From the NCBI GenBank assembly GCA_033064195.1, contig JARBJD010000048.1, positions 1-64,000 of the forward strand: a stretch of DNA of 64,000 bases. The letters are read 5' to 3'. Source of the DNA: Blattamonas nauphoetae. Taxonomy: Eukaryota; Preaxostyla; Oxymonadida. The position numbers and the translations under genes were made by a program. Positions 5,517 to 42,393 of this stretch are shown here, piece after piece (position 1 is the stretch's first letter; the number at the start of each line of letters is the position of its first letter). A model generated the notes under the pieces. That model had not been told where the DNA came from. It made no database searches and was given only the letters and a program-made list of their open reading frames with translations.

Positions 5517-5535
5517 ACATTCACTAGTATTCGAA

Positions 5536-9477: not shown

Positions 9478-9619
9478 CATCAGGCTACATACTGGTTGTT
9501 TTGGATTGAGAATGGACAACCACGAGTGCGATATGTCATTGATCGTCGACTTCAAGAAGCTTATGAAGAAGTGAAGAGAGGATATTAAATTGAATATTTT
9601 ATTTTTGAAGAAAACACAA

Positions 9620-10030
9620 ATGGTGAAGCGCTATTTCTCAATTCAGAATTCTCACACTGCTCAATTGCCTCCTGATTTTACCAATTCCAGAAACCAAAAA
9701 TATGTTCACTTTCTCGACTGCAAACTTATCCATGTGAGAGAAGAAATTAATGGTAACTCAACTGTCATCTCAAAAGACATTCCTCAGCACATAACAATCC
9801 ATGGTGATTGGATTCAGACTGATGCATTCAATGACTCGTTTGTTGCTTTCTGTAATGAACAGATTGCGAAGCGAAAGAAGTGGGAATTAACTACTCGACA
9901 ATCAATTGTGAAGATCTGGTTCAAAGACAGTTCTGGTGACTCAATCGAGATGGAAACAACCGAGACAATCAATGGAAAAATAATCAAAGAGTATTATGAA
10001 TTTCTGGTTGATCTCATGTTGGAGTATTAG
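9620..10030 (+). CDS. Element protein, about 136 aa, unrecognised
   Basis: The ATG at 9620 is preferred to an in-frame upstream triplet because the T-rich box (about 9594-9606) lies just before it. The product is mostly beta-like with a C-terminal helix and no membrane segment. It follows the two capsid-like genes and overlaps the end of the convergent fibre-like gene by 17 bp. A small shell or vertex protein would fit this position, but nothing in the sequence proves it. Confidence 0.55.
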   Translation: MVKRYFSIQNSHTAQLPPDFTNSRNQKYVHFLDCKLIHVREEINGNSTVISKDIPQHITIHGDWIQTDAFNDSFVAFCNEQIAKRKKWELTTRQSIVKIWFKDSSGDSIEMETTETINGKIIKEYYEFLVDLMLEY

Positions 10031-10904
10031 TCATTGTGTCGATCAGTGAATTATATTTTTGTACAAGTTCATTGATGAGTGTCTGTTGATGTCCGACGAT
10101 AGAGGATAATTCCTGAATTGCTTTCACGCAGAAGCAAGAGAGTTCAGCATAATCAACTTGAAGACAATCTGGATTGGAATCATTCACAACCTCAGGGAAT
10201 ATTTCTTGGATCTGTTGAGCAATCACTCCAATGTGTTTCCTCTCACTTTCCTTCTTCAAACATTCACATTTCTCTTTACAGTTCCTCAAGTGTTCTTCAT
10301 CAGTCTCGCTCTCAATTTGCTTCGTCACTTTGCTGATCTTCGAGTCGAATGTGTTGAACTGATACTGCACGATTTCCACTTTATTCAGTTGTTCAAGAAC
10401 ATCGGGGTATGGTTCAATATTTCTTTTGACTCTTCTGTCTGACAGTTGAGAAAAACTTCCTGTTGTGGATATTGAAAACACTCCTGAACCAGTGTCCTCA
10501 TCGTAGTAGTACAAAGCTGGTGAGTCACACGGAGACCACATTATTATACCATCACCATTGAACTGAATTCCAGAAGTTTCTGAAAGCGATTGTGAGATTG
10601 ATATGCCAGACTTAAATGTTGATGCCGGATATGTTCCAGGATACTTCGGAAGTGATCCTTCTGAGATATTCCACTTCGCTCCATTCACATTGATCAATCC
10701 TCCTATTGTTGGTGTCGTGATCGATCCATTTGTGCTGACTACTTTCTGTATTGAAGATATCGCTGTCTGCTGTGCTTCTGTTGTCTTCTGAAGTGATTCA
10801 ATCACTGCCGAATTCTCGTTGGTTGTTGAGAGATTATGATCAATCATTTTCTCAATCATTTGTGAATTGTATTTTTGTCGACTCATTTTCGTTTGCTCTT
10901 TCAT
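10014..10904 (-). CDS. Fibre-like protein with S74 intramolecular chaperone domain
   Basis: A 296-residue protein. The C-terminal half carries the hallmark of the Peptidase_S74/intramolecular chaperone family: SDRRVKRNIEPYPDVLEQL followed by VQYQFN, then KHIGVIAQQIQEIFPEVV and a terminal coiled-coil-like helix. In phage tail spikes and related fibres this domain assembles the trimer and then cuts itself off. The N-terminal half has a coiled-coil stretch followed by a Gly/Ser-rich beta region that could be the shaft. In this element it most likely forms a host-binding spike on the capsid. It is transcribed toward the capsid-like genes, and its T-rich box lies inside the end of the next upstream frame. 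Confidence 0.75.
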   Translation of the reverse strand: MKEQTKMSRQKYNSQMIEKMIDHNLSTTNENSAVIESLQKTTEAQQTAISSIQKVVSTNGSITTPTIGGLINVNGAKWNISEGSLPKYPGTYPASTFKSGISISQSLSETSGIQFNGDGIIMWSPCDSPALYYYDEDTGSGVFSISTTGSFSQLSDRRVKRNIEPYPDVLEQLNKVEIVQYQFNTFDSKISKVTKQIESETDEEHLRNCKEKCECLKKESERKHIGVIAQQIQEIFPEVVNDSNPDCLQVDYAELSCFCVKAIQELSSIVGHQQTLINELVQKYNSLIDTMTNTPT

Positions 10905-11065
10905 AGAAAATAAAAAATGACAACTCCCTCATGAACATACGTCACCGGCACAGTATTTCTGACATACTCAGAGACCAGCGTATAGTTCTCTTCTCTCATT
11001 GATTCAATGAATGCTTGTTCTGAACATACTCGACGTCTTTCCTTGTACATTTCAGTTGGATTCAT
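10901..11065 (-). CDS. Short protein (54 aa) related to the three-repeat protein at 12763-13365
   Basis: The frame MNPTEMYKERRRVCSEQ onward aligns by eye with one repeat unit of the 12763-13365 protein: CSEQAFIESMREENYTLVSEY against CTKAKFLESMKNENCELISEY. It ends in an ATGA overlap with the fibre-like gene, and its last codons run through the T-rich box of that gene, so the tail may be incidental. It starts at TAAATG like other genes of the element. Confidence 0.45.
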   Translation of the reverse strand: MNPTEMYKERRRVCSEQAFIESMREENYTLVSEYVRNTVPVTYVHEGVVIFYFL

Positions 11066-12762
11066 TTAATACAAATTCAAAAATTCAGAATTAGATTTTC
11101 TTCCGTTGTTTTCTCAGTTTTGGATTTCAGACTCAGATCGAGGATCAATGGGTTCGATCTCTGATTTTTCACAAGTGCTTGTTTCGTTCCGATTCTTCGC
11201 GTTTTGGAATCTCCTGAACTCCAGGATCATCGTGGTATGCTTCATTTTTTCCTTTTTCCGAACTTTTGCAGAGTTGTTGATGGTTTCAGGATCGGTCGTG
11301 GATCTCGGAACTTTTCCGGAAAAAGGAGTATGCCACTCTCATTTCTCTCTTGTTTCACTCTTGTTTTAGAAGTTTTTGATGGAATTGTCACTTCATTTTC
11401 ACTAGTTATGTTTTCATTTTTCACCTCACTTCCGTCTTCGTTTTCTCATTGATTATCCTTTTTAACCACTTCATTCATGTTTCTTTCTCTGAAACTTTTT
11501 CTCTGTAAGTTCACACTAATTCTCGTTTACTGAGTTTTCCGGACTTTTGCAGAGATCCGCCATTCAACGGCTCACTTCATATCTCGGTATTTTTCCGGAA
11601 AATCCAACATTTCACGAACATTTTTGAATCATTTTTGTTGTTTTTAAGAGAGAAAAACCGGAACACAGACCTAATTTTCACTATTGGTGCCACATTTCAC
11701 ACCGTTTTCACGTTCGTCAATTTCCCTCTCAGTTTCATACTTGCCCGTTTCATTGTTGGTTGTTTCGCTTTCTTCTACTCTGTTTTTGTGAAAAAGTTGA
11801 TGAAAAGTTGACTAAAATGATGTGCTAGTGAAGTGAGAACGGCCCACAAAATGGAAGTGATATGAGCAAAATGAAGAGGAATGATGAACTAATTCGAGGT
11901 GAAATGGGGAGCAAAAGTGATGAAATGAAAGGGACTACAGTCGGTTTTGAAGTGACAAAAACGGTCAAAAGTTGAGAAGTGAAAACATGAAAAAGTGACT
12001 TTATGGGAGAACTATCCGACAAAATCTCCTCAAAATTTGAGCACACCTTACTCAGACAGTGAGAAAGAAGGATTTGCAGTGAAATTCAGATTAAAAAATC
12101 CATAGTGTCAAAATGTTGGTGCAAATGTGTCGTCAGAGGTGTGATCGAAAAACCGACCCTCCAGAGCGAACTATAGGTGATGTAAAACCAGAATTCTCAA
12201 AAAAGGGTTGTTTTAGTACGATTGCGAAGTGGTTGACGTGAAATCAATGAGAAATGAAAATTGACAAAAAATTGTGAAAACGATCGTGTGTCGAGGATCG
12301 TCAAAACCGAATGACGCGAATACCTGTCCACTATCGTTTTGACACCTACGGAGACCATCAGAGGGCGAAAAGTGACGTGTAGGAGAAGAGCGAGACGTCA
12401 CTTTCTCCTCCTTAAAAATTTTGTCATTTTCAAAATATGTTGTGGGGTCGGATCAAACTTTTTTTTCAAAAGTGCTTTTTTCCTAAAATTTCACCTATCA
12501 ACATCAATTTCGTAATTTTAGAAGGTGTTTGAACACAATTTGAGACATAAAGGTGTTCATAGTGGCGAAATCCGAACATCGACTTTTTCGTCACTTTTTC
12601 GACCTAAGTTCGGTACACAGTTCGACGAATTCTCAACCGATGTTGATCAGGATTGTCTTGATCGATGACCGACAGTGCCCCCGAGATTTTAGAATTTTTT
12701 TCAGAATTTTTCGAAATGGTTCTCACATTGGATTTCGTTGATTTGTGGTCAAAAATAGATTT
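11066..12762. other. Non-coding stretch with diverged repeats
   Basis: About 1.7 kb with no frame that resembles a protein. It is rich in short words such as GAAGTGA/TCACTTC and TTTTCCGGAAAA. Two diverged direct repeats of about 70 bp lie at roughly 11262-11330 and 11532-11606; both begin with a CCGAACTTTTGCAGAG-like word and end with CTCGG followed by TTTTCCGGAAAA. Some words also recur near 15.9-16.0 kb (GGGTCGGATCAAAC, GAATTCTCAAAAAAG), so part of this DNA belongs to a dispersed non-coding repeat. Confidence 0.45.
11262..11606. repeat. Diverged direct repeat pair, about 70 bp each
   Basis: Unit 1 is about 11262-11330 and unit 2 about 11532-11606. They share CTTTTGCAGAG near the left end and CTCGG plus TTTTCCGGAAAA near the right end, with more divergence between. 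No gene is attached. Confidence 0.4.
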
Positions 12763-13365
12763 TCAGTATTTTCGTGACCTATCATGGTACTTTCTCAAGT
12801 GAGGACGGTCTCCAAAATACAACCAATTATCCAAGCGAACGTAATACTCGTTCTTTGTTCGTAAATCGCGATATTTGAATGGCTCAAGTACCTTTGTGTA
12901 TGTTCCAATGAGTTCACAATTCTCTTTTTTCAATTCATTTTCAACAAACGACTGTGTGTAATGTTTTCGTTGACAATTATGAGCTCGATATCCTTTCATC
13001 CATTTCGAGGGAATCACTTTCCATTCGATTCCTTCGTACCGGTATGTGACAAGTGAATCAGCATACTTGTATTCAGAAATGAGTTCACAATTTTCATTTT
13101 TCATTGATTCGAGAAACTTTGCTTTCGTACAACAATTGGATACTTGAATGTATCTCTGACGATTCAGATGTGGTCTGTATCCTTTGACGAAATTATTGAC
13201 GTACGCTCGATAAATGTCATCTGGTTTATCTTCGTGATAATACTCGAAAGTACTCGCCGTGAGATATGTTGTTCCTTGTCGATTGAGAGTCGGAGGTGAT
13301 TTCATAATCAATTTTTCTTTCTCCAAAATTTCCAGTAGTTGAGTTGGTGTCAAGACAGAGCTCAT
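12763..13365 (-). CDS. Protein of three ~58-residue repeats, possibly belonging to the virus-like element
   Basis: A 200-residue protein from the ATG at 13365. This start is preferred to the far upstream ATG at 13455 because TAAAATG there follows a T-rich box like those of the element genes. The product is built of three repeats of about 58 residues, each with the pattern F-x-x-x-x-x-x-E-N/K-C-E-L-I-x-x-Y, then an aromatic strand, then W/F-x-x-G-x-R-x-H. Similar short repeats with a hydrophobic-aromatic core and a GYRAH/GDRPH turn are seen in accessory proteins of large DNA viruses and phages, but I cannot name a family. A related short frame lies at 10901-11065. Function unknown. Confidence 0.55.
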   Translation of the reverse strand: MSSVLTPTQLLEILEKEKLIMKSPPTLNRQGTTYLTASTFEYYHEDKPDDIYRAYVNNFVKGYRPHLNRQRYIQVSNCCTKAKFLESMKNENCELISEYKYADSLVTYRYEGIEWKVIPSKWMKGYRAHNCQRKHYTQSFVENELKKENCELIGTYTKVLEPFKYRDLRTKNEYYVRLDNWLYFGDRPHLRKYHDRSRKY

Positions 13366-13595
13366 TTTATCCAAATTAAAAAATTGAATAAAAAAAGAAA
13401 TCGAATTTGTTTTTGGAAAGTACTCAAAAAAAGCTTCAAAAAGGACACTTTTCACGAGGTCATTTTTTGGCTATTATTTTCAAATTTAGGGCACATTTTT
13501 GAGGTCATCGAAATGTCATAAATTCCTTTTAATACAAGATCCAAAAATGGTCAATCGGCATTGACTTTTAGTTTTGATTTCAAAGACTTTTTCAG

Positions 13596-14369
13596 ATTGG
13601 TTCTCCGTTCGCTTCTATAACTACTGAAAAAGAAGAAGGAAAACCATCCTCTCGTTTTTTCATTCGACGGATTGAAGGAAGAGACAGAGAAACGCTGGAG
13701 AGGGTGATCCTCGAGGAAGTTGAAATCGGAACGCTCATCGTCACGGACTCCCTCTCTTCATACGATCATCTGGATGAGATAGGATTTCTTCATGAAAAAG
13801 TCAACCACAGCGAAAAAGAATATGTTAATGCGAATGGATTCACAACGAATCACGTGGAAACTTTCTGGAGACATCTCAGACTCTCACTCCCTCACTTTGG
13901 AGTACCAAAGAGTCATCATGATTCCTATTTTCACACTCATCTCTATCGAAAGAATGTCGTGGATGAAATCCAGTTCTTCAAGGATTGTGGATCTGTGTCA
14001 GACGAACAACTTTCACTTCTCGAAGAACTCCAAAAAACAAATGTTGAATCGGAAAAAGAAGCTGACAAAATGAGGAAGGATGTTTCTACTCAGCGTCACC
14101 TCGAAAAAATTGCTCAAACCACAACGGAGTTGGCAGAGACCACGACACATTTCCAACAACTCTCGCAAGCAAGAGAGAAAGAAGTCCACAAAGTGATCGA
14201 GAAACAGAAGAGAGTTGAATCCTCGAAATTGACAGTGAAAACACGCTCTCAAACGAAGAACGGGAAGGTCCTTAAAAATTCACAGGGTCGAAAGAAAATG
14301 TTGAAAAAGAAAAAGGAAGTCAGAAAATCATCAATCCCCGGTGCACCAATTGCGAAAGTCCATCAATAA
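13596..14369 (+). pseudogene. Merlin-type (IS1595/ISXO2-like) DDE transposase remnant
   Basis: The frame holds the C-terminal half of an ISXO2-like transposase: GTLIVTDSLSSYDHL (second catalytic Asp), VNHSEKEYVNANGFTTNHVETFWRHLR (conserved H/N-x-x-E block with the catalytic Glu) and the closing HLYRKN. This is the core of eukaryotic Merlin elements, cut-and-paste DNA transposons that make 8-9 bp target duplications. The frame is open from about 13596 but has no usable ATG. The N-terminal part with the first Asp is not seen, so the copy is 5'-truncated. After the core comes a coiled-coil and a Lys-rich tail ending in TAA at 14367-14369. The same frame then continues into an OTU-like domain. 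Confidence 0.7.
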
Positions 14370-14387
14370 GTTACATCAAGCGGGGTT

Positions 14388-14879
14388 GTGGATTGCCACC
14401 AGCGTCTCTTTGACCTGTGGGGGGACAGATATGTGATTGTGAACGGTGAGAGAGTTCATGACAGACCAAATGATTGTCTCTACAATGCAGTCTGGATGTT
14501 TCTCACACCTGATGAAAAACGAGCCCATCCAGATCTTCGAAGAGATGTCATCAATTGGATGCACCAAGAAGCCAATCAACAACACCTAACCGACAATCTT
14601 CGATGGGATGATATGAACAAACCAGCAGAGCAACGAATCAGAGAGCTGGAAGAGTTTGCTCAATCGGAGGATAGCGAAGTGGAAGCCCTTGCTTGTCTTC
14701 TTGAGAAAACTCTTTATGTTCGCTGTCCTTTCGGGAGTGTGACTGCCTTCAATCCTGGGAAGCCTGTCATCAATATTGGATACATTCCAGGGCATTTCGT
14801 GGCAATGTTCAATCGGAGACAGCTGTACTCTCTCTTCTTCTATTCTCCTCATCTCACTTCACATGTATTGACTTTTTAA
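14388..14879 (+). CDS. OTU-like cysteine protease domain, in frame after the Merlin transposase
   Basis: A 163-residue frame with features of an OTU-type cysteine protease: NDCLYNAVWMFL (catalytic Cys at the start of a helix), HPDLRRDVINWMHQ (the conserved LR-helix) and PGHFVAMF near the end (candidate catalytic His). OTU proteases cleave ubiquitin chains. There is no good ATG; the open stretch follows directly, in the same frame, from the TAA that ends the transposase remnant. It was probably once one protein (transposase plus OTU) or an adjacent gene on the same transposon. The stop could be a disabling change in an old copy. The OTU call rests on motif order only. Confidence 0.5.
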   Translation: MDCHQRLFDLWGDRYVIVNGERVHDRPNDCLYNAVWMFLTPDEKRAHPDLRRDVINWMHQEANQQHLTDNLRWDDMNKPAEQRIRELEEFAQSEDSEVEALACLLEKTLYVRCPFGSVTAFNPGKPVINIGYIPGHFVAMFNRRQLYSLFFYSPHLTSHVLTF

Positions 14880-15096
14880 AAAAATGGTGAATAAAATGCC
14901 AGAGAAGTGTCGTACGCTTTCTTAAATGATAAAAACTCCCACATTCTTGTTTTTCATGTTTTTTTTGAAATATTTGATTTGTTTTCTGTGTCTGATTCTT
15001 TAGACAACGTCTTGCTGTTAGGCCCACATTCTGGGCATCCTCATTCTGTTTCCTGGCGACTGACATTCACTTCGACACTTGGGGAGGACCATATTA
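14880..15096. other. Short gap between OTU-like frame and foldback element
   Basis: No gene or repeat identified. The right flank of the transposase/OTU unit ends somewhere here, but no terminal inverted repeat matching a partner near 13.5 kb was found. Confidence 0.3.
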
Positions 15097-19316: not shown

Positions 19317-22300
19317 ATGCTGCTCTGCATCCTTGTCAGTTCGTTCGTCAGCTACAGCTCTGCCCTGGATCGAACTGACTGTCTCATGAAAGACATCCTT
19401 GCTGGACAGATGAATCAACAACATAATCTCCTGGAAGACGTCTTTCCACACGATGAATCAGCCAAAATGAAAAGTCTTCCGGCACAGATGGATTTGGATG
19501 GGATATTCACCAGTTCTGATCTGAAGATCGAAAACAGCCGAGTTACCATGAAAGGACACAACACAAGAACAATCATTCTTCCAAACAGCAGTGATCAGAA
19601 GTCATTGTCTCTCTTCCATCTGACCAACTCCACACTTCTGTTCCAGGACATCACATTCTCGTTGTTGACAGAAGGGTATGGAATAGAAAAGGGGTGGCCA
19701 CAGTCTGAACTGAGACAGAGTGTTTGGTGTGCGAAGATGGAAGGATCATCGCTCTCTACAGACAGATGCATGTTCATTTTGAGTGGACGAGAAAATCTCT
19801 TCGTGCTCTCATCGCCAGGGCCAGAAGCGACAAACCCGCCAAACTCAGTCGTCCTCCACTCCTGCTCATTCCACACGAAGGACGGGATTCTGTCCCCATT
19901 CTGCCAAATCGACCCAGAATGCTCCCTTTCATCCCACAACGACATTGCAGTTGTGTCGTGTCGCTTGTCAGACTTGCAGGTCGCTTCGTCGTCTGGCTTG
20001 GCTGTCTCGTCTTCTTCTTGTCGACGTCTCTCAATGTCGACAACGCTGAGCTGGCTTTCTTTGCGAAATTTGTCGAGAACAGTCGGAAGTGTGGAGTGTG
20101 GGATGGGATGTGAGGTTTCAAAGGAAAGTGTTTTGGGGAGTGAGTTGGATGGAGTGGAAGATGGGTTGTATGGAACAGTGACGAAACCACTCTGTACGAA
20201 GCATCCATTCATGAGCATGAACACGTCCTTCACAAACATCAGAAACTCTGAGGAACACGAACACAACCCGACGAACTTGACTCATGTTGGGCAGACATAC
20301 GACGCGAATCAAGCTTCTAATCGCTTCGGCCGAGTCGATCTGGAAGCTCCTGTCTCTTTCATCGAGTGCTCCATCACCTCCACAACACCAACAATCAATA
20401 TGAATTTTATCCATCTGACGAACCATGCAGACGACCTGACAATCAAGAGCTGCACATTTCAAGTGAACACGACATCGTCCGTCTTTGTCCGACTCATAAA
20501 TTGGCAACCAGCCATCGGGTCCTTCCCAACACTCACGATTGACAAGCTGAACTCGGAGTACAGCGCGACAGACAAGGGAACAAATCCACAGAGTGTCATT
20601 TACGTCTCTCGCTCTGTCACAGCTCACATCACAAACTCGAACTTCACTTCAACGGATGGATGCTCAGCCGCTCGTCCGCTTCTATTCTCCCCAGGCACGT
20701 TTATCCATCACATTTTTGGTTGTGTCTTCTCAGATGCAATCACCACGGCCGGCGGAGGAGTTATCGCCATCGGAAGTGGAGGTGACCTGATCATGTCTGA
20801 TTGTCTGATGCAGAACAACAGAGCGACAGCGAACGGAGGATGCATGTCAGTCAACTCACATTGTCTGACCTTCCATCGCTGTGTCTTCAAAGGGAATTCA
20901 GCAGTGAGGGGTGGGTGTATCACATCATCCACGCTCAGCCTGGGTGTGTGGGAGGATTGTCATTTCGAAGAGAACACAGCGACTGAAGGCCATCACTTCA
21001 GCGGAAACGACATTTACACCTCAGTTGGAACAACGGCATACCACAACTCAACTTTGATTGTTGGCTGCACGTCAACCTCGTCTGCACCGAAGATCAGTTT
21101 TTATCAATCGGCAACTGGCAACGGAGCTCATCCACAAGCAGAGATTCTCCTGCCTGACCCTTCAACGAAGACAGATTACGAGCAGAAGCTGTCAGTTGCA
21201 GTGGATGGGTCTGGATCGACATGCTCGGAAGCTCTGCCCTGCCAAACAATCGAAGATGCTCTTCTCACCATCAGCACAACTGGAAGGAATCGAATTCTGA
21301 TTGGGACAGGAACATTCGAAGACACAACAACAAGAACTGTTTCGGGGTCAGTGGAGTTGGTTGGGAATGGCTGGGTTCGCGACTCGTCGTTCTTCACGAC
21401 AGTGGTGTCGGGAGGGATGAAAGTTGGATCAGGTGGAAATGTGACTCTGCGTTCGATGACACTGCTCCCTTCGACTGCAACCACGATTGTTGTTGAGATG
21501 GAGGAAGAGGGTGTGCTCCGCCTCTCTTTCGTCCGAATCGATGAGATCAGCTCGCATTCGTCTTCTCTGATCTCGATCTCGAAAGGGACGACGACGCTGT
21601 TCCGCTGCTGGTTTGACAAAGTCAACTTAACGAGCTCAGCCTTCGTGTCAGTCTCTGGCTCTGCGTCTCTTAACGTGCTGGGCACATATTTCATGCTGAT
21701 CACTCGGACAAACGGGGAAGGAGCGAGCTGCATCGATTCGGAGTCAACTGGACAACTTGCATTAGACACATCGGATTTCGGGAATTGCTCGTCGTCTGGA
21801 GTGGCAGGAGCGCTCCATCTCAAAGGAATAACACCATTGGCATCACTAAACTTCAACCAAGTGTATTTCTTCAACAACGAAGCCAAAACAGAATCAACTG
21901 CGACAGGCGGAACTGTTCTCAAAGCTCATGACATGATTGTGGAAGGCTTTGACTCAAAGAACCTGTCGGAAAACAATGTCAAGTCAACCAGCCCACAAAT
22001 CAGCTTCCTTCGACTCGGACAGCCAACCAGCCTCAGTTTCAACAGAGATTTCGGATATTCGAACGATGGCGCTGGTTTTCCGCTCGCTGGAAAATACACC
22101 CAAGGCATTCCGCTGTCTCAATTCACCTCTCTCAAGATTATGACAGAACAGGTCTTCAGATCTGGGGAAATTGTGAGTCCAATTCTTTCCGGGCTGACTC
22201 TCACACTCGAACCACTTCTTGCTGAGTATGTCCACATCGAATGGCGATATGGAACCATCCATCCATCCACTTCGTCTGAGACACTCGTCACTACTGGACA

Positions 22301-25300
22301 GAACGCCACCTTTCAGTTCGCATTTTGTTCTCATATTTTCACAGCCGTCCCAACTGTCACTCCATTTGTCGTCAATCATCCAAGCGGATTCTTCGATTTA
22401 TTTTCTGGTTCGCTCAATTTCACATGCCCAACGACGAACTTGCCAGTTCCGCTCTTTTCACTTTCGACAGGGCAGCTTCGTCTTATTAACTGCATCTTCA
22501 ATGCTGTGCTCTCCTTCTCAGGTTGTTCAATGATCGAAGGAACAGGTGGATCAGTAATTCTGACTGGCGGAGTATTCAAGCAAATCACGTCGACTGGAAA
22601 TGGAAGTGTGGTCCATGCCACGTCAACCATAGTCAATGCCGACGGATCCAAGTTTGAAGGATGTCAGTCGAAGAATGGAGGAGCCATCTGGTTCGAAGCG
22701 ACGGGGACGAAGTATCTTCGAGTCAGTCATCCATCATCATCCACACATTCCACCACATTTGAGAATTGTGAGGCGGCGGAGAGAGGAGGAGCGATTTGTG
22801 TGGAAGGCTCTTCGTCGATCTCCAATCCCATCCGCTTCTTCACTGACAATATCAACCACGCTCGATTCTCAGGAAACAAGGCGACAGTGTCTGGAAACGA
22901 TGTTTTTGTGGGAAAGAATGTTTTTGGGTCGAGGAAGATTTCAGAAATTGGGTTATTCGGAGGAGGATCGCTGAGTGACTGGTTCCACGTTGTGATTGAA
23001 GATCTGGGGAAGACAGAGGAAGAGAAAGTGGATATTGGTCTTCTAATTCCGCTGCCGACAGTGTCAGTGAATGGATCAGTGAATGAACTGACGACAGGAA
23101 TGAGTGGGACAGACAATGATGCGTGCAAATGGACCTCGACATTCTGTGCGACACTTGTATATGCGATGAACTCACTTCGATCGAAGCACGATGGAAAGGA
23201 CATCGAGATGAAAGCGCAGTTTGTGTGGAACATGACATACACTGAACTGCCGATGCGAGTGAGTGACCAGAACGTGAAGTTGACAGGAACAACAGCAAAG
23301 GATCAAACGAAATGCAACGAGACACGAACAATTGTTGAGATGGATTCGAAATCTGCAGCTGGCTCTGCTCTGTTCACGATTGAAAACCAAGCAGTTTTCT
23401 CTGTTTCGAACATGGACTTGAAGATTCGAGAAGGACATGGACTCTTCGTTGTGGAGTCGACAGGGAACTCGCTGAGAATCGAGAATTGTGGGATGATTGC
23501 GTCTTCTGACTCGACATTATCGGAAAGTGTGATTTGTGTGAATGGAGGATCACTGGAGCTGGTTTCGAGTTTGTTGAACACAACCGAATTGCCAACCTGT
23601 TCTCTTTCTGTGGCTCTGATCTCTGTGAACTCAGCGACAGCGAACGTCATCCTCGACACAGTTTCGATTTCTGGATTTTCGTTCTCGTCGTCATCACTCG
23701 TTCATCTCGTGACAGAAACATCGATGACTGTGAAACATGTGAGATTTAAAAGATGCGTCCATTCTTTGGGAAATGGCCATCTGGTTCTGGTGGAAGGAAA
23801 CAATTTTGTTGAACAGATTTCACCAGCGAATTGGGAAGGGACATTCTCAGAAGACACGCCGATGGACTCGCTTTGGGGAAAAGATTCTACATTGTCGTCA
23901 TCTTCAGAATGGAATGAAGCGTCTCTTCTTTTCTATCTGTTCCGACCTGATGGAAAGATTGTGGCAGGAGGAACAGGAAACAAGGCGAGCACTCATCCAT
24001 TCTGCGGATCAGAACAGTTGATCTGCTCGACCCTGGAGAGCGCGCACACCTCACTCCGAAATGGATTGGACACAGTTTGGATTGAATCAGACATCTCGCT
24101 GATCTCGAAACTGAGAGTTGCGACGTCAGCGACATTGACATCTTCAACATCGACAAAGCGAGTTGTTTGGTTGACAGAATCTGGAATGATTGAGGTAGAT
24201 GGGATTGGGATCACAGTAACAATGACATCACTCACCGTCTCCTGCGACTCGAGCAGCATCTCTCCAACTCTGTTCTCTGTGAAGTCTGGAACTCTGGATG
24301 TGGACGAGTGTGTGCTTGGTGGATCGTCATCAGAGAATGCGCTGGTTCTTTCGTCGTTCGTAACATCACTCATCAGTGTTGGACAAGCAGGAGTTTTTGA
24401 TCTTCGCTCCTCAAAGATCTCAAATGTTGTATTCGCTCACTCGTCAGATGGAAGTGCTGTTGTTGTGGAAAAAGGAGGATCGTTCGTGACGGACTCCTCT
24501 GAGTCTGTGTCATCGATCCGCTCGAACGGGACAGGATCGCATCTGCTGATGTTTGGAGACAGTTTTGGAACAATTGCAGGAAGTGCCGAAATGAAGAAGT
24601 TGAAACCAGGGATTCCTGAAATTGGATTCTTCTCGTTGGAAGAGAGGAAGAGACTGGCCGGATCAGTGGATGGAGATGTGGAGAGCATTCTGTACGAATG
24701 GCATGAAAGGGAGTCTGGAGTGGTTCATGTTCGTCGGGAAGGAGTGGATGCAGCGAAAGGTGGGCACGCTTGTCTTCCGCAACAGACACTCTCGTTCTGT
24801 CTGACAGAGCTGGTGAGTGGTGGGAAGATTGTGATTGACTCTGCCTTCTCTCTCGCAGAGGCACTCGTGCAACCGAACTCAGAAATCACGATCAGCGCGA
24901 ACCCAATGAAGAACGAGGAGATTGGAGTGGAAGTGGAAGTAGTGGAGTTGGGCTCATTCTCGGTCAGTCAAGGTCATCTGACTGTCTCATCTCTCTCCTT
25001 TTCTACCGCGATAAAGGCAGGGCCATTCATGACAGTTTCCAATACTGGTTCATTGACGATCACGTCGTGCTCGTTCTCTGGATTCTCGTCCGGTTCATCT
25101 GGATCGGTTGTATCAGCGTCACTCGGAGATGCCAACACCCTCTCCATCACGAGCTCGAAGTTCTCGAACTGCAAGTCTGATTTGTCTGGAGGAGTGATTC
25201 ATCTGATTCTCTCGTCCGCAACTGAATCGTCGCAAATTGAGATGAAGGGAACATTCTCAGACTGTTTCTGTGGGAATGGAAAGAAGGGAGATTGGGTGTT

Positions 25301-27257
25301 TGTTGAAGGAACGAATCTTGAGAACCAGATTGATGCTCAGAATTGGAATGGCCATCCAACGACATTTGGAGATGAAAACGAGAATCGAATGTGGGGAACA
25401 GATTCGTCAGAATCATCACCGATCTTCTCGTCGTCCACCCTGTTGGTCTATCTTTTGGAGACAACACTGGACGAGGTGTTTGTGAGTTCATTGGGAAGAG
25501 ATGTGAGAGGATGTGGATTGGCTCGTTGGCCGTGCAAGACGATCTCGTCCTCGACGAGCCATCTTCTGAACTCGACGACATCGCAAGTGACACTCCACGA
25601 CGCCTCGTCACTGACAGAAGAAGTAGTGAACTCGTGGAACCATCTGATTGTGTGTGGAGATGAACAAACGTCGAAAGATGTTCTCGTTTCGTTGTCTGGC
25701 CGCTTTTCGATTCCCATCCTCAAACTCAGTCTCTCGTTCATCGCATTCGACACAAACGAAGGATGCTTCGCGACTTCGCTGATCACGCTGTCTGGAACTG
25801 GATCACTTTCAGTTGACTCTTGCTCGTTCAGGTCGTTCCACAGTTCTTCAAGTGGATCAATTGTTTGTGGAACAGTCTCATCATCGTCGTTCCTCAGTCT
25901 GACTGCGTCGTCATTCTCGTCGTGCAGGTCGGATGGAGATGGAGGAGTGATTTGGGTTCGCTGTGAGGAATCAGTGGAATCGTCGTCTCTGGTTGTGAAC
26001 TGCTCATTTGATACTTTGTGTGGGTGTGGAAGTGGAAGCAAAGGAGAGTGGGTGTTTGTGGAAGGATTTGGATTCGAAGATCTGATCTCCGCTCCAAACT
26101 GGGAAAGGACATCGTCATCTCTCTCCTCCCCAACCAACGACTCTCTCCTGTTTGGAGTTGACCGGAACGAAGCAGAGAGCTCGTCGTTCCACTCGCTGTC
26201 TCTTCTGTACTATCTGACAGAGTTTCGAGGAAGCACGATTTTCGTTGGGTCGAATGGACGAGACTCGAATGGTTGTGGACATTCGGAGCGAATGTGCAAG
26301 CGACTGGAAAGAGGCCACGCTCACCTGAAAGGGACGATGTCTCTGGAACTGTTTGTGGTTGAGACAGTGTCGCTGACATCTGTGCTGACCTTCGCTCCGA
26401 ACAACCTGGTGATCACATCGCAGATTGGGCGAGGGATTGTGAATGTGGAAGGGGAAGGGAGTTTCCGAGATGGGGATCTGACAGGGACTCACATCCTGAC
26501 ACTGAGCCAGCTCTGCTTCAATCTGGACGCTGCGACATGCTCGACGCTGTTCACAACTGGAGTTGGACAACTGATTCTGACATCGTGTTCATTCGCAAAG
26601 TCGGATGTGTTTGATTTGGAACTTGTGAATTTGGTTGGAGGTGAGGTGAATATCGACAACACGACTTTCATTTCGATCTCGTTCAGTGTGGTTCCTTTCG
26701 TGTTCTCTTCATTCTCGAATGTTCAATTGGAGAAGGTGAATTTCAAGAATTGTTCTGGTTCGTGTTTCCTGAAAGCATCTGGAAATGGGGAATCGAGCAA
26801 ACTGTTGCTTGATTTTTGCCATCTCTCTGGAAACCCACACTCGCCTTCAAACGACATGACTTCGGAAGAGCTGTGTTCGTGGTCGACAGGAATGATGGAA
26901 TTGGACTCGACATGGGCGATGTTGCACTCGGTGGACATCTCGAACGGGAGACAAGGAGGGATCCGACAGGTGGGTGGATGGCTGAGCTTAGCAAACGTGA
27001 ACTTTTCAGATAACACTCCGTCAGAGTCTTGTTTTGGATCAGTTCGACACAACATTGATTGCAGTGGAAACGGGACCGTGTCACTGCATTTGGAGGAGTT
27101 TGAATCGAAAAATCTTTGGATTGGAGGATCGGAGTGCTCAGTTGAGAATGGAAATGAATCACTGCTCTCTCCTTTCTTCGTTCCCACACTGTCGTCGAAG
27201 TCATCGTGTGTGCAGACAAAGAAGAACAAGACATTTTCTGTGACGATTGTTGGCTGA
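19317..27257 (+). CDS. Giant secreted/surface right-handed beta-helix protein (2,646 aa)
   Basis: A single intron-free frame. Residues 1-20 form a signal peptide (MLLCILVSSFVSYSSA). The rest is Ser/Thr/Gly-rich with many short strands of the form SLTITSCSFSGF or LTIENSRV, typical of pectin-lyase-like parallel beta-helices. A cysteine-bearing linker recurs about six times (for example GSTCSEALPCQTIEDAL, GCGLARWPCKTI, GCGHSERMCKRL) and seems to open each helix module. Two related modules also share a WVFVEG...NW-type segment. I see no C-terminal membrane helix or GPI signal; the protein ends SVTIVG, so it is either secreted or shorter than membrane-anchored relatives. Such proteins are abundant in oxymonads and trichomonads. 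A role in adhesion is plausible but unproven. Confidence 0.8.
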   Translation: MLLCILVSSFVSYSSALDRTDCLMKDILAGQMNQQHNLLEDVFPHDESAKMKSLPAQMDLDGIFTSSDLKIENSRVTMKGHNTRTIILPNSSDQKSLSLFHLTNSTLLFQDITFSLLTEGYGIEKGWPQSELRQSVWCAKMEGSSLSTDRCMFILSGRENLFVLSSPGPEATNPPNSVVLHSCSFHTKDGILSPFCQIDPECSLSSHNDIAVVSCRLSDLQVASSSGLAVSSSSCRRLSMSTTLSWLSLRNLSRTVGSVECGMGCEVSKESVLGSELDGVEDGLYGTVTKPLCTKHPFMSMNTSFTNIRNSEEHEHNPTNLTHVGQTYDANQASNRFGRVDLEAPVSFIECSITSTTPTINMNFIHLTNHADDLTIKSCTFQVNTTSSVFVRLINWQPAIGSFPTLTIDKLNSEYSATDKGTNPQSVIYVSRSVTAHITNSNFTSTDGCSAARPLLFSPGTFIHHIFGCVFSDAITTAGGGVIAIGSGGDLIMSDCLMQNNRATANGGCMSVNSHCLTFHRCVFKGNSAVRGGCITSSTLSLGVWEDCHFEENTATEGHHFSGNDIYTSVGTTAYHNSTLIVGCTSTSSAPKISFYQSATGNGAHPQAEILLPDPSTKTDYEQKLSVAVDGSGSTCSEALPCQTIEDALLTISTTGRNRILIGTGTFEDTTTRTVSGSVELVGNGWVRDSSFFTTVVSGGMKVGSGGNVTLRSMTLLPSTATTIVVEMEEEGVLRLSFVRIDEISSHSSSLISISKGTTTLFRCWFDKVNLTSSAFVSVSGSASLNVLGTYFMLITRTNGEGASCIDSESTGQLALDTSDFGNCSSSGVAGALHLKGITPLASLNFNQVYFFNNEAKTESTATGGTVLKAHDMIVEGFDSKNLSENNVKSTSPQISFLRLGQPTSLSFNRDFGYSNDGAGFPLAGKYTQGIPLSQFTSLKIMTEQVFRSGEIVSPILSGLTLTLEPLLAEYVHIEWRYGTIHPSTSSETLVTTGQNATFQFAFCSHIFTAVPTVTPFVVNHPSGFFDLFSGSLNFTCPTTNLPVPLFSLSTGQLRLINCIFNAVLSFSGCSMIEGTGGSVILTGGVFKQITSTGNGSVVHATSTIVNADGSKFEGCQSKNGGAIWFEATGTKYLRVSHPSSSTHSTTFENCEAAERGGAICVEGSSSISNPIRFFTDNINHARFSGNKATVSGNDVFVGKNVFGSRKISEIGLFGGGSLSDWFHVVIEDLGKTEEEKVDIGLLIPLPTVSVNGSVNELTTGMSGTDNDACKWTSTFCATLVYAMNSLRSKHDGKDIEMKAQFVWNMTYTELPMRVSDQNVKLTGTTAKDQTKCNETRTIVEMDSKSAAGSALFTIENQAVFSVSNMDLKIREGHGLFVVESTGNSLRIENCGMIASSDSTLSESVICVNGGSLELVSSLLNTTELPTCSLSVALISVNSATANVILDTVSISGFSFSSSSLVHLVTETSMTVKHVRFKRCVHSLGNGHLVLVEGNNFVEQISPANWEGTFSEDTPMDSLWGKDSTLSSSSEWNEASLLFYLFRPDGKIVAGGTGNKASTHPFCGSEQLICSTLESAHTSLRNGLDTVWIESDISLISKLRVATSATLTSSTSTKRVVWLTESGMIEVDGIGITVTMTSLTVSCDSSSISPTLFSVKSGTLDVDECVLGGSSSENALVLSSFVTSLISVGQAGVFDLRSSKISNVVFAHSSDGSAVVVEKGGSFVTDSSESVSSIRSNGTGSHLLMFGDSFGTIAGSAEMKKLKPGIPEIGFFSLEERKRLAGSVDGDVESILYEWHERESGVVHVRREGVDAAKGGHACLPQQTLSFCLTELVSGGKIVIDSAFSLAEALVQPNSEITISANPMKNEEIGVEVEVVELGSFSVSQGHLTVSSLSFSTAIKAGPFMTVSNTGSLTITSCSFSGFSSGSSGSVVSASLGDANTLSITSSKFSNCKSDLSGGVIHLILSSATESSQIEMKGTFSDCFCGNGKKGDWVFVEGTNLENQIDAQNWNGHPTTFGDENENRMWGTDSSESSPIFSSSTLLVYLLETTLDEVFVSSLGRDVRGCGLARWPCKTISSSTSHLLNSTTSQVTLHDASSLTEEVVNSWNHLIVCGDEQTSKDVLVSLSGRFSIPILKLSLSFIAFDTNEGCFATSLITLSGTGSLSVDSCSFRSFHSSSSGSIVCGTVSSSSFLSLTASSFSSCRSDGDGGVIWVRCEESVESSSLVVNCSFDTLCGCGSGSKGEWVFVEGFGFEDLISAPNWERTSSSLSSPTNDSLLFGVDRNEAESSSFHSLSLLYYLTEFRGSTIFVGSNGRDSNGCGHSERMCKRLERGHAHLKGTMSLELFVVETVSLTSVLTFAPNNLVITSQIGRGIVNVEGEGSFRDGDLTGTHILTLSQLCFNLDAATCSTLFTTGVGQLILTSCSFAKSDVFDLELVNLVGGEVNIDNTTFISISFSVVPFVFSSFSNVQLEKVNFKNCSGSCFLKASGNGESSKLLLDFCHLSGNPHSPSNDMTSEELCSWSTGMMELDSTWAMLHSVDISNGRQGGIRQVGGWLSLANVNFSDNTPSESCFGSVRHNIDCSGNGTVSLHLEEFESKNLWIGGSECSVENGNESLLSPFFVPTLSSKSSCVQTKKNKTFSVTIVG

Positions 27258-35368: not shown

Positions 35369-38300
35369 ATGGAACAGAGTCCGGGTCAAACGTATAGTCT
35401 CTCCATGATGGATAGTGATCGTAATTTGTTTGTTTCAATCCTGCTCGGGACACTTAGACACGGTATGACCTCATCTTTCTTATCTCTCTCAGAAACTGTA
35501 AACCAGGCTCAATCTATCCTCAGCAGCTTCGAAAATGAAAATATTGTGTGTTATTTTCCTGAATATCAACGCGGTTTCTCCGTATAGGAACAATATTGCG
35601 TTCTATTGTCCGATGAATTAGGGAACGAGAACTCTCCAGACTTCAATTCTCGGATTGTCGCTGGTGGTCAGCTCAAGAATATGGTGAAAGCACAGGTATC
35701 TTTCTATCTCAATATGATCTAAATGTCCTCCATAGGGTAGAAACGAGAAAGATGCGAAAGCGAACCTATGGTTGGGATTTCAGCCTGAAAATCGAGTTCG
35801 AATCACAGACAATGTGTGCTGATTGATCATGATCATCTCCATTCAAGGCTAAACGAGCACTTCAATCAACAATCATACAGGTAGCTAATTCTGCAGCACT
35901 CGTAATCTCAGCGATCGGCGTCATCGAGGTTCAAAGAGGAGTGGACACTTCTCTCATCATGGAATTGCTCAAAAACATCCAGACCATTCAAACTGTTGAC
36001 ACAGACTTGCTTCCTAAAATCATTCAAGTCGGAAATGACCCAAACACACAGAGTCAAAACCCTTCCCTTCTTCCAACTCTCCTTTCTCAACATCGGCTTA
36101 ACATGAACCTGAAGCGTGCATCAATCACATCACTTCGATATCTGTGTGAAGATCTACCGATTGTCTGCCTGGAGAAGTTCCAAGACGAACTGTTAACAAT
36201 CATCGTAAGCACGTCACTCGATTATGCCAAAGTGTACCGCGATGAATCAGACGATGAAGCTGAAGTGGAAGCACTGTCTGCACTGCAGATTCTTCTTCCA
36301 GCAGTGCACGAGCGGATGTCTCAGAAGGGGCCTCGCGACATGATCATCAAGACGATTATGGGTCCTCTAGTGGCCATCCCGGAGCAAGGCCAGCCAGACA
36401 GGCAGTATGACCATCGTGTGAAGGGATATCGATGCCTGATCGACCTGGCCGACCTGTATTATCCGTTCATCACAGAATACGCCGAAACGATCTTCGAATG
36501 CACAATCAGCACCATCAAGAAGGACCAAAGCGAGATTATTTCGCTGGCAATTGAAGTTTGGAATGCGATCGTGTCGTTTGAAGCGTCGCTGAAGTTCAGA
36601 AACAGATTCCCGGAGCGAGCGAGGATGACAGTTGGACAATACTTTGCGAACACACACCCGATCGAACGGAATGCGGGTCTGACGGAGAAAGGGGCGGACC
36701 AGCTGACGAACCTGATGATGGAGACGATCCTGAGTGTCGACGAGGCGGATGATCCAACTTCGCGTCCAGACATTTCAGCTGCGCTGTCGCTGCTGTCGTC
36801 GATTCTGAGTGCAGTGGACTCAGACGAGCTCTTCACCAAGCTGAGTTCGTTTGTCCTGTCGAACCTGGTGATGGTGAGCGGGCAGGGGCAGAGTGTGCTG
36901 TCAGTCCAGCCCTGCGAGCAAGCGCCGTCGTTCAACTGTCGAGCAGGATCGGTGTATGTGCTTATTCTGATGGTGATGGGGACGATCATGGGATGGTCGA
37001 ATCTGCGACGAGAAGAGGACCTGCTGGAGTCTCTCCGGACGACGCCTGACGCGAAGAGCGCGTTTGAGGCTCGATCGAATCAGGCCACGCAGCACTCGCA
37101 GACTCTGAATGGGTTTGTGAAAGAGGCATTCAACATTCTTCTTCAGGGCATGCTGGGCGACGATTCATATGCAGTGCGGACAGCTTGTGCGTTTGCTGTG
37201 CACACAATCTGCGCTGAACTGCCGTTTCTGGTGATCCCGGAGAAAGTGACGCTGCGAGAGGTGGACGAGAAGTGGATGCAGACGATGGTGTCCCTCCAAC
37301 AAGGCCTGACCTCGACCGACTCGTTAGTAGCACGGGAATCAGCAGCGTCGATCAAAACACTGGCTCGGACGTGCACAGACGAACAGCGGAAGAAGCCATA
37401 CAACTTTGTGAACCAGATGCTGGGACAGCTGTACGAACCGTTATTTGGGATTCTGGCGCGAGGCGATGCGGGTGACGGAGCGCTTCTGGTGACACAATCG
37501 ACGCGGGCAATGGAAGAGATGATCAACAACTGCGGACTGGCAGCGAGAGTGGAGCTGTCGCGGAAGTTGGGGGCAGTGCTGGACGAGATGACGACAAACC
37601 AGAACCAACCAGTTGGGCTGCTGACAGCCGAACTGACCATCATCAAGCTGACGACACTGAAGATCGAGCACTCAATCCAGTCCCACTTCTCAAAACTGGC
37701 GGGAGTGTTGGCCAGGCTGACCCAAATCAACGACATGACGTTCCAGCAGACACTTCTGGACACGCTGAACATTGTGGCCCACTTCTCGAGTCCCTACGAC
37801 ACCTCGTTCTTCGAATCACTCGGCCCTTATTTAATGACCTGCCTCAGCCAGGATCAGATCTGGCCCATCCAACGGACGGCGCTGGATGTGATTGCGATGT
37901 TTGCAATGCAGCTGGAAGGGCGATTCGCACCGTTCGTTGCCACAGTGCTACCTCCGATCTGCGAGATGTTCACGAGACAGACACAAGTTCCTGGTCATGT
38001 TGGGCTTGCTGTGGACGAGCGGGTGCTCCCGTCAGCGCTGATGTGCATCTCGGACACGATGCTGTCCACACACGTGCCGTGTCTGTTCATGTTGGAACCG
38101 ATTCTGAACATCATCCGACTGGCACTTCAGACACCGATGAACCTGGACGCGCCGAGGGAGCGCCGAGCAAACGTCGTTGAGTTGTATTCCAACGCTCTGC
38201 AGACACTCATCACAATTTACAAGAAGTTCACCCCGCAAGCAGCGACAACGCCAGAACTGCAGGCAGCGTACCAGTTCCTGGAACACACGTACTGCCCGGC

Positions 38301-38622
38301 GTTCATCGGAATCCTGTCCGAGCTGTGCATGAGCATCACAACAGCTGTGGACGCATCGTTTGCAGGCGAGCACACACTCACCCATCTTGCGATGAGAACA
38401 GTCGACCTTATGGGGAACGACTTCATCGACACACTCGCGTCCACCTTCTCTTTGTTTCTGGACTCGTATCCGTCCTGCCAGCCACACTTCTTTGTGGGTG
38501 ATGACATTGTGTTTGGAATCAAGTTCCTGTTGAATGTGTGCAGTGCTGTCAAGTCAAGCTCAATCCAAAACAACATCCAACAGCTTCGACAAAAGGTTAC
38601 TCTTTTCCCTCTGAGTTCGTAG
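35369..38622 (+). CDS. Importin beta (karyopherin beta-1 type) nuclear transport receptor, five exons
   Basis: Five exons give 1,035 residues of helical HEAT repeats. The N-terminus contains RIVAGGQLKNMV, matching the importin-N box (R-x-A-A-x-x-L-K-N), and IGVIEV, the second HEAT repeat signature. The long last exon (from 35848) continues the array to KVTLFPLSS. Introns are 35463-35492, 35546-35587, 35696-35735 and 35814-35847 (30-42 nt); all fit in phase. The start at 35369 (or an inner ATG near 35405) is the first in frame. Importin beta carries cargo, alone or with importin alpha, through nuclear pores under Ran control. An importin-alpha-like gene lies at 53708-55931. Confidence 0.85.
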
Positions 38623-39112
38623 TGCAATTGGGATGTCGTCTTTTCGGACCCAGTGTCCTCGGACTTTCACATGTGAATCGACAACAAACAGAGAAATGAA
38701 TCCTCAATGATCCTCATCTGGCTTCTTCTTGTTTTGGAGCATAATATTCATTTTATATCACTTGATTTTGAACTCGCTCATCAGTGTTTTGCTCAAAACT
38801 GTTCGAAACCACTTTCAGAAATAAAAAACAATGGGCGACATTTATCGACCACTTCTAGTCAATATAATTAGATGTTGATGCCAATCATCACACAGCTCTT
38901 CGCTTTTCTCACATGTCTGAAAGTTGGAAACAAAACTTACCCTGCAGAGCGTTGGACTAGAGATGAGTCTGTCATTCTTCTTCGTTTTCATGATGTTGAA
39001 TCGAACAGTTATTATGACGGCGGATTTGGGGTTTATTACAACTTGTTGAAAACAGTCGATACTTCCACAATTAAGGAATGCGAAGGTGTCTCTGGCGCAG
39101 TCGCTGTTCGTA

Positions 39113-39330
39113 CAGGGTGGCCCAAAAGTCTGAAAAAAGAAAGGGCCGATCAACGACTGATTTGACAGATTCGAAGCTTTATCATGATTTCTCTTTTTCA
39201 CAACGTAACTGGCATTCTCATCATATTATCTCCCCTCAACATCATTGGCAAGAAATCCCTGTTTGAGTGCCAACAAGTGAGTCTTTGTCGCGATCGGCCC
39301 CTTTTCTTTTCAGACTTTTGGGCCACCCTG
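39113..39330. mobile_element. Tc1/mariner MITE, 218 bp, inside the MRH gene
   Basis: The ends are CAGGGTGGCCCAAAAGTCTG and its inverse, a classic mariner terminal pattern, and similarity extends about 40 bp. TA flanks both sides (39111-39112 and 39331-39332). Removing the element plus one TA restores CGT-ACA-AGC in the MRH reading frame. It encodes no protein. Confidence 0.85.
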
Positions 39331-39386
39331 TACAAGCTCTCTAAGACCTTACTGTACTGTGATAGGCTATAAATCCACAGAAAACA

Positions 39387-41357
39387 TAGGCATGGCTGAC
39401 CGGCCAAAAGTGCCGGTCAGTGTCACTCCATAATTATTCAAAGGGTCAGATCTCTGTTATTTCTTAAATTACATGAAATGAACAAGAAAATGACAAAAGA
39501 GCTTGTATTCATGTCCAGATTTACTAAATGAATCGTTATCCATGATGTGGATCGACTAAATCGTCAAGTTGTGTTTTTGACTCCTCATATTTCTCTCTAC
39601 AATTGCTTTGGTGGATCATTTTCCTCTCTCTAGGTCCTCTTTCATGCAGTTACATCATCTCTTCTCAACAAGCTGAACAAATAAATTGGAATGGAGGGGA
39701 AAAACAACGCAACAGATCAAAGGCGTGTTGGTGCATCAATGAGGAGATGATGTGCAATCAGTATATTCCAAGTATTCATCTGGATCTTTGCTCCTGTTTG
39801 GTCTTCTTCATCTTCTGAATCAGGTTAGTGTGCTCTCTCCATGCTAAAAGGTGGTGGGCTGACCATTTTCGAACGAGTGGACGAGCTTGGTGATAATCGC
39901 AGATGCTTGGAAGGTGTTTGGAATGATACTCACTTTCCTATTGGCGTTCTCTGGCAGATTCTTCGATGTTTCTTCCTTCTTTGTCATTCACCTCAATCTT
40001 TTCCGTTCACTCCGTCCTCGGTCTTCTATTTGAAGTGAAAGAACAGATGTGGGCTGTTCCCTTCTCCTTCTGTCAGTTTAGCCACAGACAGATCCTTCGT
40101 TTCGTCGCACTCGTCTGAATCCGACATCTCGTCCTTCCTGTGGGTCATCTACCTCTTCCTTTGTCATCCTCAGTCTGCATTCCTGTCTCGAGCAGTTATG
40201 TCATTCCAGAATCGGATTTTCATTTGTTTGTGTCCACCCATGATCTTCCGACGGACACGACAACTCCAATCTCGTGCCCCTTCGCCTGTTCTATGAAAGA
40301 CGAGAGAGGGAAGAGTGACGGATGCGTACGTGTCACAGCACGTTCTGAAATTGATGACGAAGTGAAGTTGAATCCACTCGACGTTCAGTGAGATGTGGGA
40401 GTGAGAGAGTGTCGTCTGCAGGAATGTTGTGATTAAGGTGAGGGTCTGACTGGCAGTGTCAGTTGCTTGTTCTTTGGGAGGGTGGGTGGGAGAGTTGAAT
40501 GCGATGTGAGTGACTCGGGACGATCAACGAGCATTCTGACCCCATCATCTTCCTTCCTGTTCTCATCCTTCTTGTTCTCCCCGCAATCTTCTTTCCCTTC
40601 TCCCTCCTCACACGTCTCGTCCTTCATCAATCTCTCAGATGCTTCAGACACTTCCAACCCAAACTTCGTCATTTCATTCAAACTCGACATTGTTGAGATG
40701 ATTCGATTTAGTTATTTCAGAAGTCGTTCGAACGTAAAGTGAGGACGGAAAGAACGATGGGATGGGCAATGTGAACGGCGATGTCTGTGAATAGTGGTTT
40801 TCATCGTTGGGTTGGCCATTTGGCCGATCTGCGAGTGGAGACATGGAAAATTGGACTTCTTTCGATTCTGGGATCGTGATTGAATCTTCTTTTGTTTAGT
40901 CGTTCATGTCTACCTTGTTCCTTCTCAGACTTCACTCCAAATCGGAGAGTTTTGTTCAAGTTTTGGCAGAAGACAAGATTGTGAAAGAGACAAAGGAATA
41001 ACTCGAGTCATTGTTATTAAATACTTGTTTTCCACACAGAATTATCACGAAAGCGCTTGTCTTGAAATGTGATCGGGATCAAACCCATTGATCGTTGTAT
41101 TCGACATAGATCGCCTTTCACTGGTGTTTGGAGATTGGATTCCTTTGAAAGTGATTTAATTATCACGAATAGAGTCATTTCTGTGTCTAATTCTTGGTTT
41201 CTGTCACACCTCATGTCATAACTCATTTCTCTGTTTAATTTGAAAAGACTTCGGAGAAATGGTATATTCAGATTCTGGGTTCCCAAATTTCTCCGGTCAG
41301 TGACCGTCAGTACTTTTCGGTGAAAACTGACCGGTCAGTGCCGGTCAGCCATGCCTA
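39387..41357. mobile_element. 1.97 kb non-autonomous DNA transposon (copy B), 8 bp target duplication, inside the MRH gene
   Basis: The ends are TAGGCATGGCTGACCGGC and its inverse (18 bp). AGAAAACA lies immediately outside both ends (39379-39386 and 41358-41365), a perfect 8 bp target duplication. The right subterminal region shares TCAGTGACCGTCAGTACTTTT-type words, inverted, with the left end of copy A at 16321. The left end shares CGGTCAGTGTCAC with the right end of copy A. No transposase frame is visible inside. Removing it with one AGAAAACA restores the MRH frame. Confidence 0.87.
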
Positions 41358-41441
41358 AGAAAACATCTCCGAACTCACAGACGGCCGTGAAGGCTTTACG
41401 ATCAGCTGTATTCTTTTTCTCCTTTGACTGTTCCAGATAAT

Positions 41442-41845
41442 CAGTGGGTTAACGACCAAACGCAAACCACAATTTCAAAATTAGTATGGATTGATCTCAT
41501 TCGTGACATGAAAAAAGATTTGTTTTGTTTTAATTTTCAAGAAACCAATACTCTCGGGAATCTAAGAAGACAACCGAGACGATGATGGTGAAGACAACGG
41601 ATACTGTCCTTTCCAGTGATCACCCCTTTTCAATTTATGTCTTCCCGGGGTTGTACGAAAGTGGTGGCAGAATCACCAATTTACTGGGACGAATATACAA
41701 CCAAAAACATTTAAGGATTACGTAATTGTCTTCTTCGATATACAGAGCTCTCTTAACAATTGTTTTTTTTTATTTTCCGGAACCATGAAAGATCAATCCA
41801 TTCTAATTTCGAAATTGTGGTTTGCGTTTGGTCGTTAACCCACTG
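41442..41845. mobile_element. MITE with ~55 bp inverted repeats, 404 bp, inside the MRH gene
   Basis: The left end begins CAGTGGGTTAACGACC and the right end is its inverse, with near-identical inverted repeats over about 55 bp. A dinucleotide AT flanks each side (41440-41441 and 41846-41847), probably the target duplication. Removing the element with one AT restores the frame TAT-AAT-GGA-AGT of the MRH gene. No coding capacity was seen. Confidence 0.8.
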
Positions 41846-42393
41846 ATGGAAGTGGAGATAACACGTTCGAGATTACATGGCTTTGTAACCGTACTGTGAA
41901 TGTGACTAAACTGACCTCAGCGTGTGCCACCTTTTTTTCTTGATTATAATCATTGTTTTTCAGAGAAGATACAACACTTGAACTCGGAAACACTGGAGGA
42001 TGCCCTGGGATCTATCCATTGATCAAGGGAGTGAATCTGGATCTGATGCACGGTTCGAACCCTCAAAAAGAGGTTATCCACTTTACGGTTACAGGACAAG
42101 ACATGAAGGGAAGCGGAGCAGATGTCCCAACTGTCAGCATCTATCCAGTCGGAAAGAAAACGGCGGAGAACACGGTTGCTCTTTCCAACGTGGAAGTTCT
42201 CGAAGGGAATACTGTTGTGAAAGGGAACTACCATCGTGCGACAGCGAACATCTCGAAAGGGCTGTCGTACACACTCGAAGTTGCTGCAGGTTCGGAAGTG
42301 AGCAACCTCTTCACATTCACCACCATTGGATCTCACAAGGTCCTCTCGCTGTCCCTTTCTTTGCTATTGTTGTTCTTTGGCTTTTTCGTTTAA

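Follow-up and report, generated by a model that had tools for sequence, protein, structure and literature searches.

Can a gene that carries three unrelated transposons in its exons, and still reads cleanly once they are taken out, be a working gene, or did it die only recently? The question is raised by a gene (gene A) at positions 38872-42393 of the window, the whole 64,000-base stretch analysed here, which corresponds to bases 1-64000 of a 336,993-base contig (C423) of Blattamonas nauphoetae, an oxymonad flagellate of the cockroach gut. The assembly searched holds 88.3 Mb in 837 contigs; the genome paper describes the published assembly as 879 contigs, 88.54 Mb and 44.96% GC (PMC10703272). 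Elsewhere in the window, positions 1-15000 form a block that by eye resembles a Polinton/Maverick, with integrase-, packaging-ATPase- and capsid-looking frames. A Pfam scan of seven frames of this block recognised two, a Peptidase_S74 (10017-10904) and an IS1595-type transposase domain (13704-14366).

Removal of the three elements (E1, E2 and E3), each with one copy of its duplication (TA, AGAAAACA and AT), together with two introns of 29 and 42 nt, leaves gene A as 281 codons plus a stop, with no internal stop (Table 1). The three elements with their duplications and the clean frame of 282 codons described in the earlier note were confirmed; the inverted ends are present too, and the count of 282 includes the stop. 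An intron-2 donor two bases downstream breaks the frame. In the annotation, gene A is represented by the hypothetical protein BLNAU_7768, a 218-aa fragment model around the last exon only.

Table 1. Features of gene A, with window positions, and inserts of its paralog B.
Feature	Position	Strand	Evidence
Exon piece 1 (start codon to TA duplication)	38872..39112	+	open frame; 81% identical to paralog B in an 80-aa alignment; joined frame
E1, putative mariner-type MITE, 222 bp including both TA copies, ~41-bp inverted ends	39111..39332		inverted repeat 93%; identical copy on C427
Exon piece 2 (3' end = AGAAAACA duplication)	39333..39386	+	joined frame; paralog B colinear, gap-free
E2, putative hAT-like non-autonomous element, 1971 bp, 18-bp perfect inverted ends, 8-bp duplication	39387..41357		C812 sibling 99.5%
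AGAAAACA copy 2	41358..41365	+	direct duplication; copy 1 at 39379-39386
Exon piece 3	41366..41407	+	joined frame
Intron 1, 29 nt, GTATTC...TTCCAG	41408..41436	+	joined frame; paralog B counterpart intron
Exon piece 4 (3' end = AT duplication)	41437..41441	+	joined frame
E3, MITE, 408 bp, 58-bp inverted ends (97%), AT both ends	41440..41847		inverted repeats; C13 copy identical
Exon piece 5	41848..41921	+	joined frame
Intron 2, 42 nt, GTGTGCC...TTTCAG	41922..41963	+	joined frame; paralog B counterpart 1 base shorter
Last exon, hydrophobic C-terminus and stop	41964..42393	+	joined frame; partly within BLNAU_7768
B1, 1294 bp removed			TA duplication
B2, 7960 bp			duplication ACATCT (or ATCT, depending where ends are set)
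B3, 1061 bp			TCA duplication

E1 has TA at both ends and terminal inverted repeats of 41-42 bp at 93%, and it is probably a Tc1/mariner-type MITE, a name that rests on the duplication and the ends, no transposase having been seen. Among nine siblings aligned end to end, six have TA ends and three TT or AA. Duplications of 8 bp were found for E2 and for all four other copies examined, which together with the short inverted ends suggests a hAT-like non-autonomous element. The last 213 bp of E2 (41145-41357) are common to many short elements at ~89-93% (40 of 780 candidate places scored), so that E2 seems to be a long relative of an abundant MITE. Eight copies of E3 were read, one identical (on C13) and five more at least 99.5% identical. 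On C445 (736218-738425), a long open frame begins at or close to an E3 copy, which may be another exonic insertion; that frame resembles, by eye, the surface-type family at window positions 19317-27257.

A search of the whole assembly with exon 1 revealed two places, gene A itself and, on the minus strand, an 81% identical place at C423:94316-94555, and a search with the last exon returned gene A, three pieces of the same paralog (paralog B) and one distant match of 26% on C24. Paralog B lies on the same contig, ~41 kb further along and on the opposite strand (~83.3-94.8 kb of the contig), and its match to gene A includes 221 bp before the start codon and extends 24 bp beyond the stop. It is free of E1, E2 and E3 at the matching sites and carries three other inserts (B1, B2 and B3), at whose sites gene A is uninterrupted. 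Joined, paralog B gives 281 codons plus a stop and aligns to gene A without a gap. Because its coding length is the same at each of the three gene A sites, exactly one duplication copy belongs to the original gene. Neither search detected a third close copy in the assembly, and the neighbouring gene end (37800-38860) has no further copy there besides the stretch upstream of paralog B.

Regarding the inserts of paralog B, no open frame of more than 100 codons was found in B1. A TNA-type 3-bp duplication (TAA, TTA, TCA or TGA) flanks nine of ten B3 siblings and is absent from the one on C778, whose left end is altered; we take B3 to be PIF/Harbinger-like. B2 contains a nested element (C423:88557-91875) whose inverted ends measure 248 bp (98.8%) and whose duplication is probably TAA. 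The core of this element is a copy of C423:71620-75642 that has undergone serial deletion, and some of the deletion points show short repeats. The block structure of B2 was also considered as a spliced retrocopy and rejected, since five gaps were checked and had no intron borders, some of them having short joint repeats, and the blocks are therefore read as serial deletion.

Comparison of the two copies by codon count revealed 68 nucleotide differences (dS = 0.112, dN = 0.077). In simulation, 68 random substitutions leave no stop with a chance of 0.08. Furthermore, there is no indel in 846 coding bases, compared with three or four (depending on the aligner) in ~316 bp of flanks and introns; if indels fell evenly, arithmetic gives a chance of ~0.006-0.02 for none in the coding part. 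These low chances indicate that the reading frame was probably kept after the duplication. The divergence is uneven, with dN of 0.33 and dS of 0.25 in residues 61-110 and a single change in residues 236-281. The block with dN above dS, set between nearly identical protein ends, may be a fast-changing block or may have undergone gene conversion on either side. The protein is hydrophobic at its C-terminus and in an N-terminal stretch, which suggests a secreted or membrane-anchored, surface-type product. No Pfam family was found at E<=1 for gene A or gene B, and comparison with PDB gave only weak matches to bacterial fucose lectins (best E 0.0078), so that the label "MRH-type" given to the gene earlier, on first impression, is not supported.

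The age of the insertions can be read from their copies elsewhere. E1 and its copy on C427 show no difference over 222 bp, E3 and its copy on C13 none over 408 bp, and E2 differs from its C812 copy by eight mismatches and one gap in 1972 aligned positions (99.5%). For B2 (2-kb end only) and B3, many copies are listed at 99-100% (rounded values), several of them at 100%. In all, five of the six elements (all but B1) have copies elsewhere at 99.5% or about that. Since the landing of an element cannot predate its split from the sibling, the inserts of gene A are at most about 0.2-0.4% old, in line with the suggestion of the earlier note that they might be very recent, although gene conversion among element copies could make them appear too young. 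The A-B divergence (dS as above) is far older. One to two substitutions, at most three, are expected in the 846 bases of gene A since insertion, and in simulation two random substitutions leave no stop with a probability of 0.93. With insertions so recent and so few substitutions expected, clean frames are the expected state. B1 stands apart, with best nearly full-length relatives at 74% and partial relatives at 82-93%. An attempt to date it through its relatives gave no date, as identity to each of the four that were read is 71-74% across the full alignment. B1 could be old, or could be the sole recent mover of a sparse family; the lack of siblings above ~74% near full length would fit an earlier insertion into a gene whose frame was still kept.

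What is less expected is the clustering. Six independent insertions fall within 1.7 kb of otherwise clean A and B coding sequence, or ~3.5 per coding kb per copy, compared with ~0.07 nested insertions per kb in young members of these families, a rough background counted by eye (~6 insertions in ~84 kb of young E1, E2, E3, B2 and B3 copies; the B2 copies on C490 and C99 each contribute one of the six, at a shared position, and these two may go back to one event; a broken copy on C278 was excluded). A count of five or six recent insertions over 1.7 kb greatly exceeds this background. So many clean insertions in one gene had already been called odd, and the oddness grows with the three more in paralog B. 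Possible contributors to the clustering are a local insertion hotspot, strong transcription of the gene with open chromatin, and selection for loss followed by relaxed selection. Young copies of E1 (C136 and C488) and of E2 (C96 and C22) are themselves split by stretches of ~1.2-4.7 kb with joint overlaps of 5-8 bases, a sign of very active transposition.

Overall, we consider it likely that the locus reflects a dispensable duplicate pair that transposons inactivated recently and in the ordinary way. A and B would be a lineage-specific pair, under constraint until recently, whose product is probably secreted or surface-located; different DNA transposons would then have struck both copies during ongoing transposition and disabled them too recently for stops and frameshifts to build up. 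Each element left the usual target duplication, so its computational removal with one copy must restore the frame. Reciprocal empty sites, near-identical copies of five of six elements and conserved genes free of kilobase interruptions support recent loss, as does an annotation limited to a fragment model. We infer that neither A nor B now yields its complete protein and that relaxed selection, perhaps during culture, acted on the pair. If the loss is recent, the pair shows two paralogs after their first insertion and before decay, and offers a case in which to test why insertions cluster.

Insertions this young are often polymorphic. It is conceivable, if rather unlikely, that the culture or other strains also contain an intact allele, or a cell lineage without some or all of the inserts, while the assembly caught the inserted version, and that the gene works in some cells. 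The k-mer completeness of 98.24% given in the genome paper leaves a small share of reads absent from the assembly (PMC10703272). However, the exon-1, last-exon and neighbour searches of the assembly give only A and B at close range, and, while several chaperonins appear as near-equally scoring pairs on separate contigs, which indicates that diverged copies can assemble apart, no such copy shows up for A or B.

Rescue at the RNA level, with the elements spliced as introns either exactly or with some codons gained or lost, is very improbable. Frame-preserving, stop-free GT/GC-AG pairs were found near the ends of five of the six inserts (19 for E1, 11 for E2, 10 for B2, 4 for E3 and 1 for B1), and the right end of E1 has a TTTTCAG acceptor resembling those of gene A. 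In addition, E3 and B1 lie within 6 nt downstream of natural splice acceptors, and could be absorbed by a longer intron 1 (five codons lost) and a longer intron 2 (24 codons lost), respectively. However, such inexact pairs also arise by chance in sequence this long, and B3 has no in-frame option near its ends. Exact removal by GT-AG or GC-AG is available at none of the six junctions in any phase allowed by the direct repeats, and AT-AC ends are possible only for E2 and B2.

It is even more doubtful that the pair is a reversible or locally tolerated target, whose exonic transposons are removed exactly (from DNA in some cells or stages, or by an unusual RNA route) as a transposon-gated switch of a surface protein. 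In this reading, insertions of this kind would not be tolerated elsewhere in the genome. Such a switch would explain both the absence of close siblings of B1 and the six-fold clustering.

Other genes were also examined for signs of general removal of exonic elements. Chaperonin searches gave 43 matches in 14 genes plus two lone weak places, with a largest internal gap of 264 nt, and kinesin searches 69 matches in 37 places, with a largest gap of 399 nt. For long surface-type genes, 75 matches (86 of 492 candidates scored) showed by eye no kilobase split within the 500-residue query. In all these searches, pieces of a badly broken gene could rank too low to appear among the matches. The genome paper gives a BUSCO score of 76.6%, similar to the 75.3% of Monocercomonoides, and reports that the predicted gene set contains 76 of 79 ribosomal proteins (PMC10703272).

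The empty sites of 31 complete siblings (9 of E1, 4 of E2, 8 of E3 and 10 of B3) were also analyzed by measuring the open frame at each. None had at least 300 nt of open frame on both sides (expected 10.1 at random positions and 4.4 at TA/AT- and GC-matched positions, P = 0.007). Two had at least 200 nt (expected 13.3 at random and 6.6 at TA/AT-centred, GC-matched positions, P = 0.02), and at 140 nt there was no clear difference (7 of 31, matched expectation 10.0, P = 0.16). The random control overstated the deficit, which was weakened by matching for TA/AT and local GC. Left out of this set were E1 copies with nested inserts (C136, C488) or shortened (C236), a partial E3 copy (C33) and distant E3 relatives, split E2 copies (C22, C96) and shorter E2 relatives, all siblings of B1 and B2, and B3 siblings beyond ten. 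A codon-usage score of the empty sites gave no clear separation of cases.

Among the ways of removal raised in the earlier note, exact canonical splicing is thus excluded by the junction letters, and regular removal is disfavoured by uninterrupted conserved genes and by the few siblings in long open frames. Ciliate-like DNA elimination, in which exonic insertions are tolerated because they are precisely excised in an expressed nucleus or life stage, would suit six duplication-precise, frame-clean exonic insertions across two paralogs and a possibly old B1, but splice junctions, conserved genes, sibling sites and gene-set completeness make it the least probable reading of all.

A literature search for oxymonads and transposable elements retrieved titles and abstracts containing neither word, and transposons of this lineage seem little described. 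We know of no germline/soma nuclear split in oxymonads, and exact removal, if true, would be the first such system known to us in this group (our search was not exhaustive). The internal eliminated sequences (IESs) of Paramecium and Blepharisma are described as TA-bounded, MITE-derived exonic elements whose exact removal restores the frame (PMC3464196, PMC9942856), and the inserts of A and B share these features. In contrast to an IES system, in which conserved genes are commonly interrupted, the chaperonin and kinesin families of B. nauphoetae are uninterrupted at the kilobase scale, and the duplications are of several lengths. Introners, as described in PMC9860276, are non-autonomous DNA elements that have inverted ends and duplications and lie within coding sequence, again like the inserts of A and B. 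However, the latter have no exact GT-AG/GC-AG removal, and the sibling copies read lie mostly outside long open frames. Duplicate genes recently inactivated by DNA transposons and MITEs are known. A and B share with them non-coding exonic elements, inverted ends, target duplications, near-identical copies elsewhere and an otherwise intact frame. What sets A and B apart is that a single gene pair carries six independent insertions from different families and yet shows no stop or indel.
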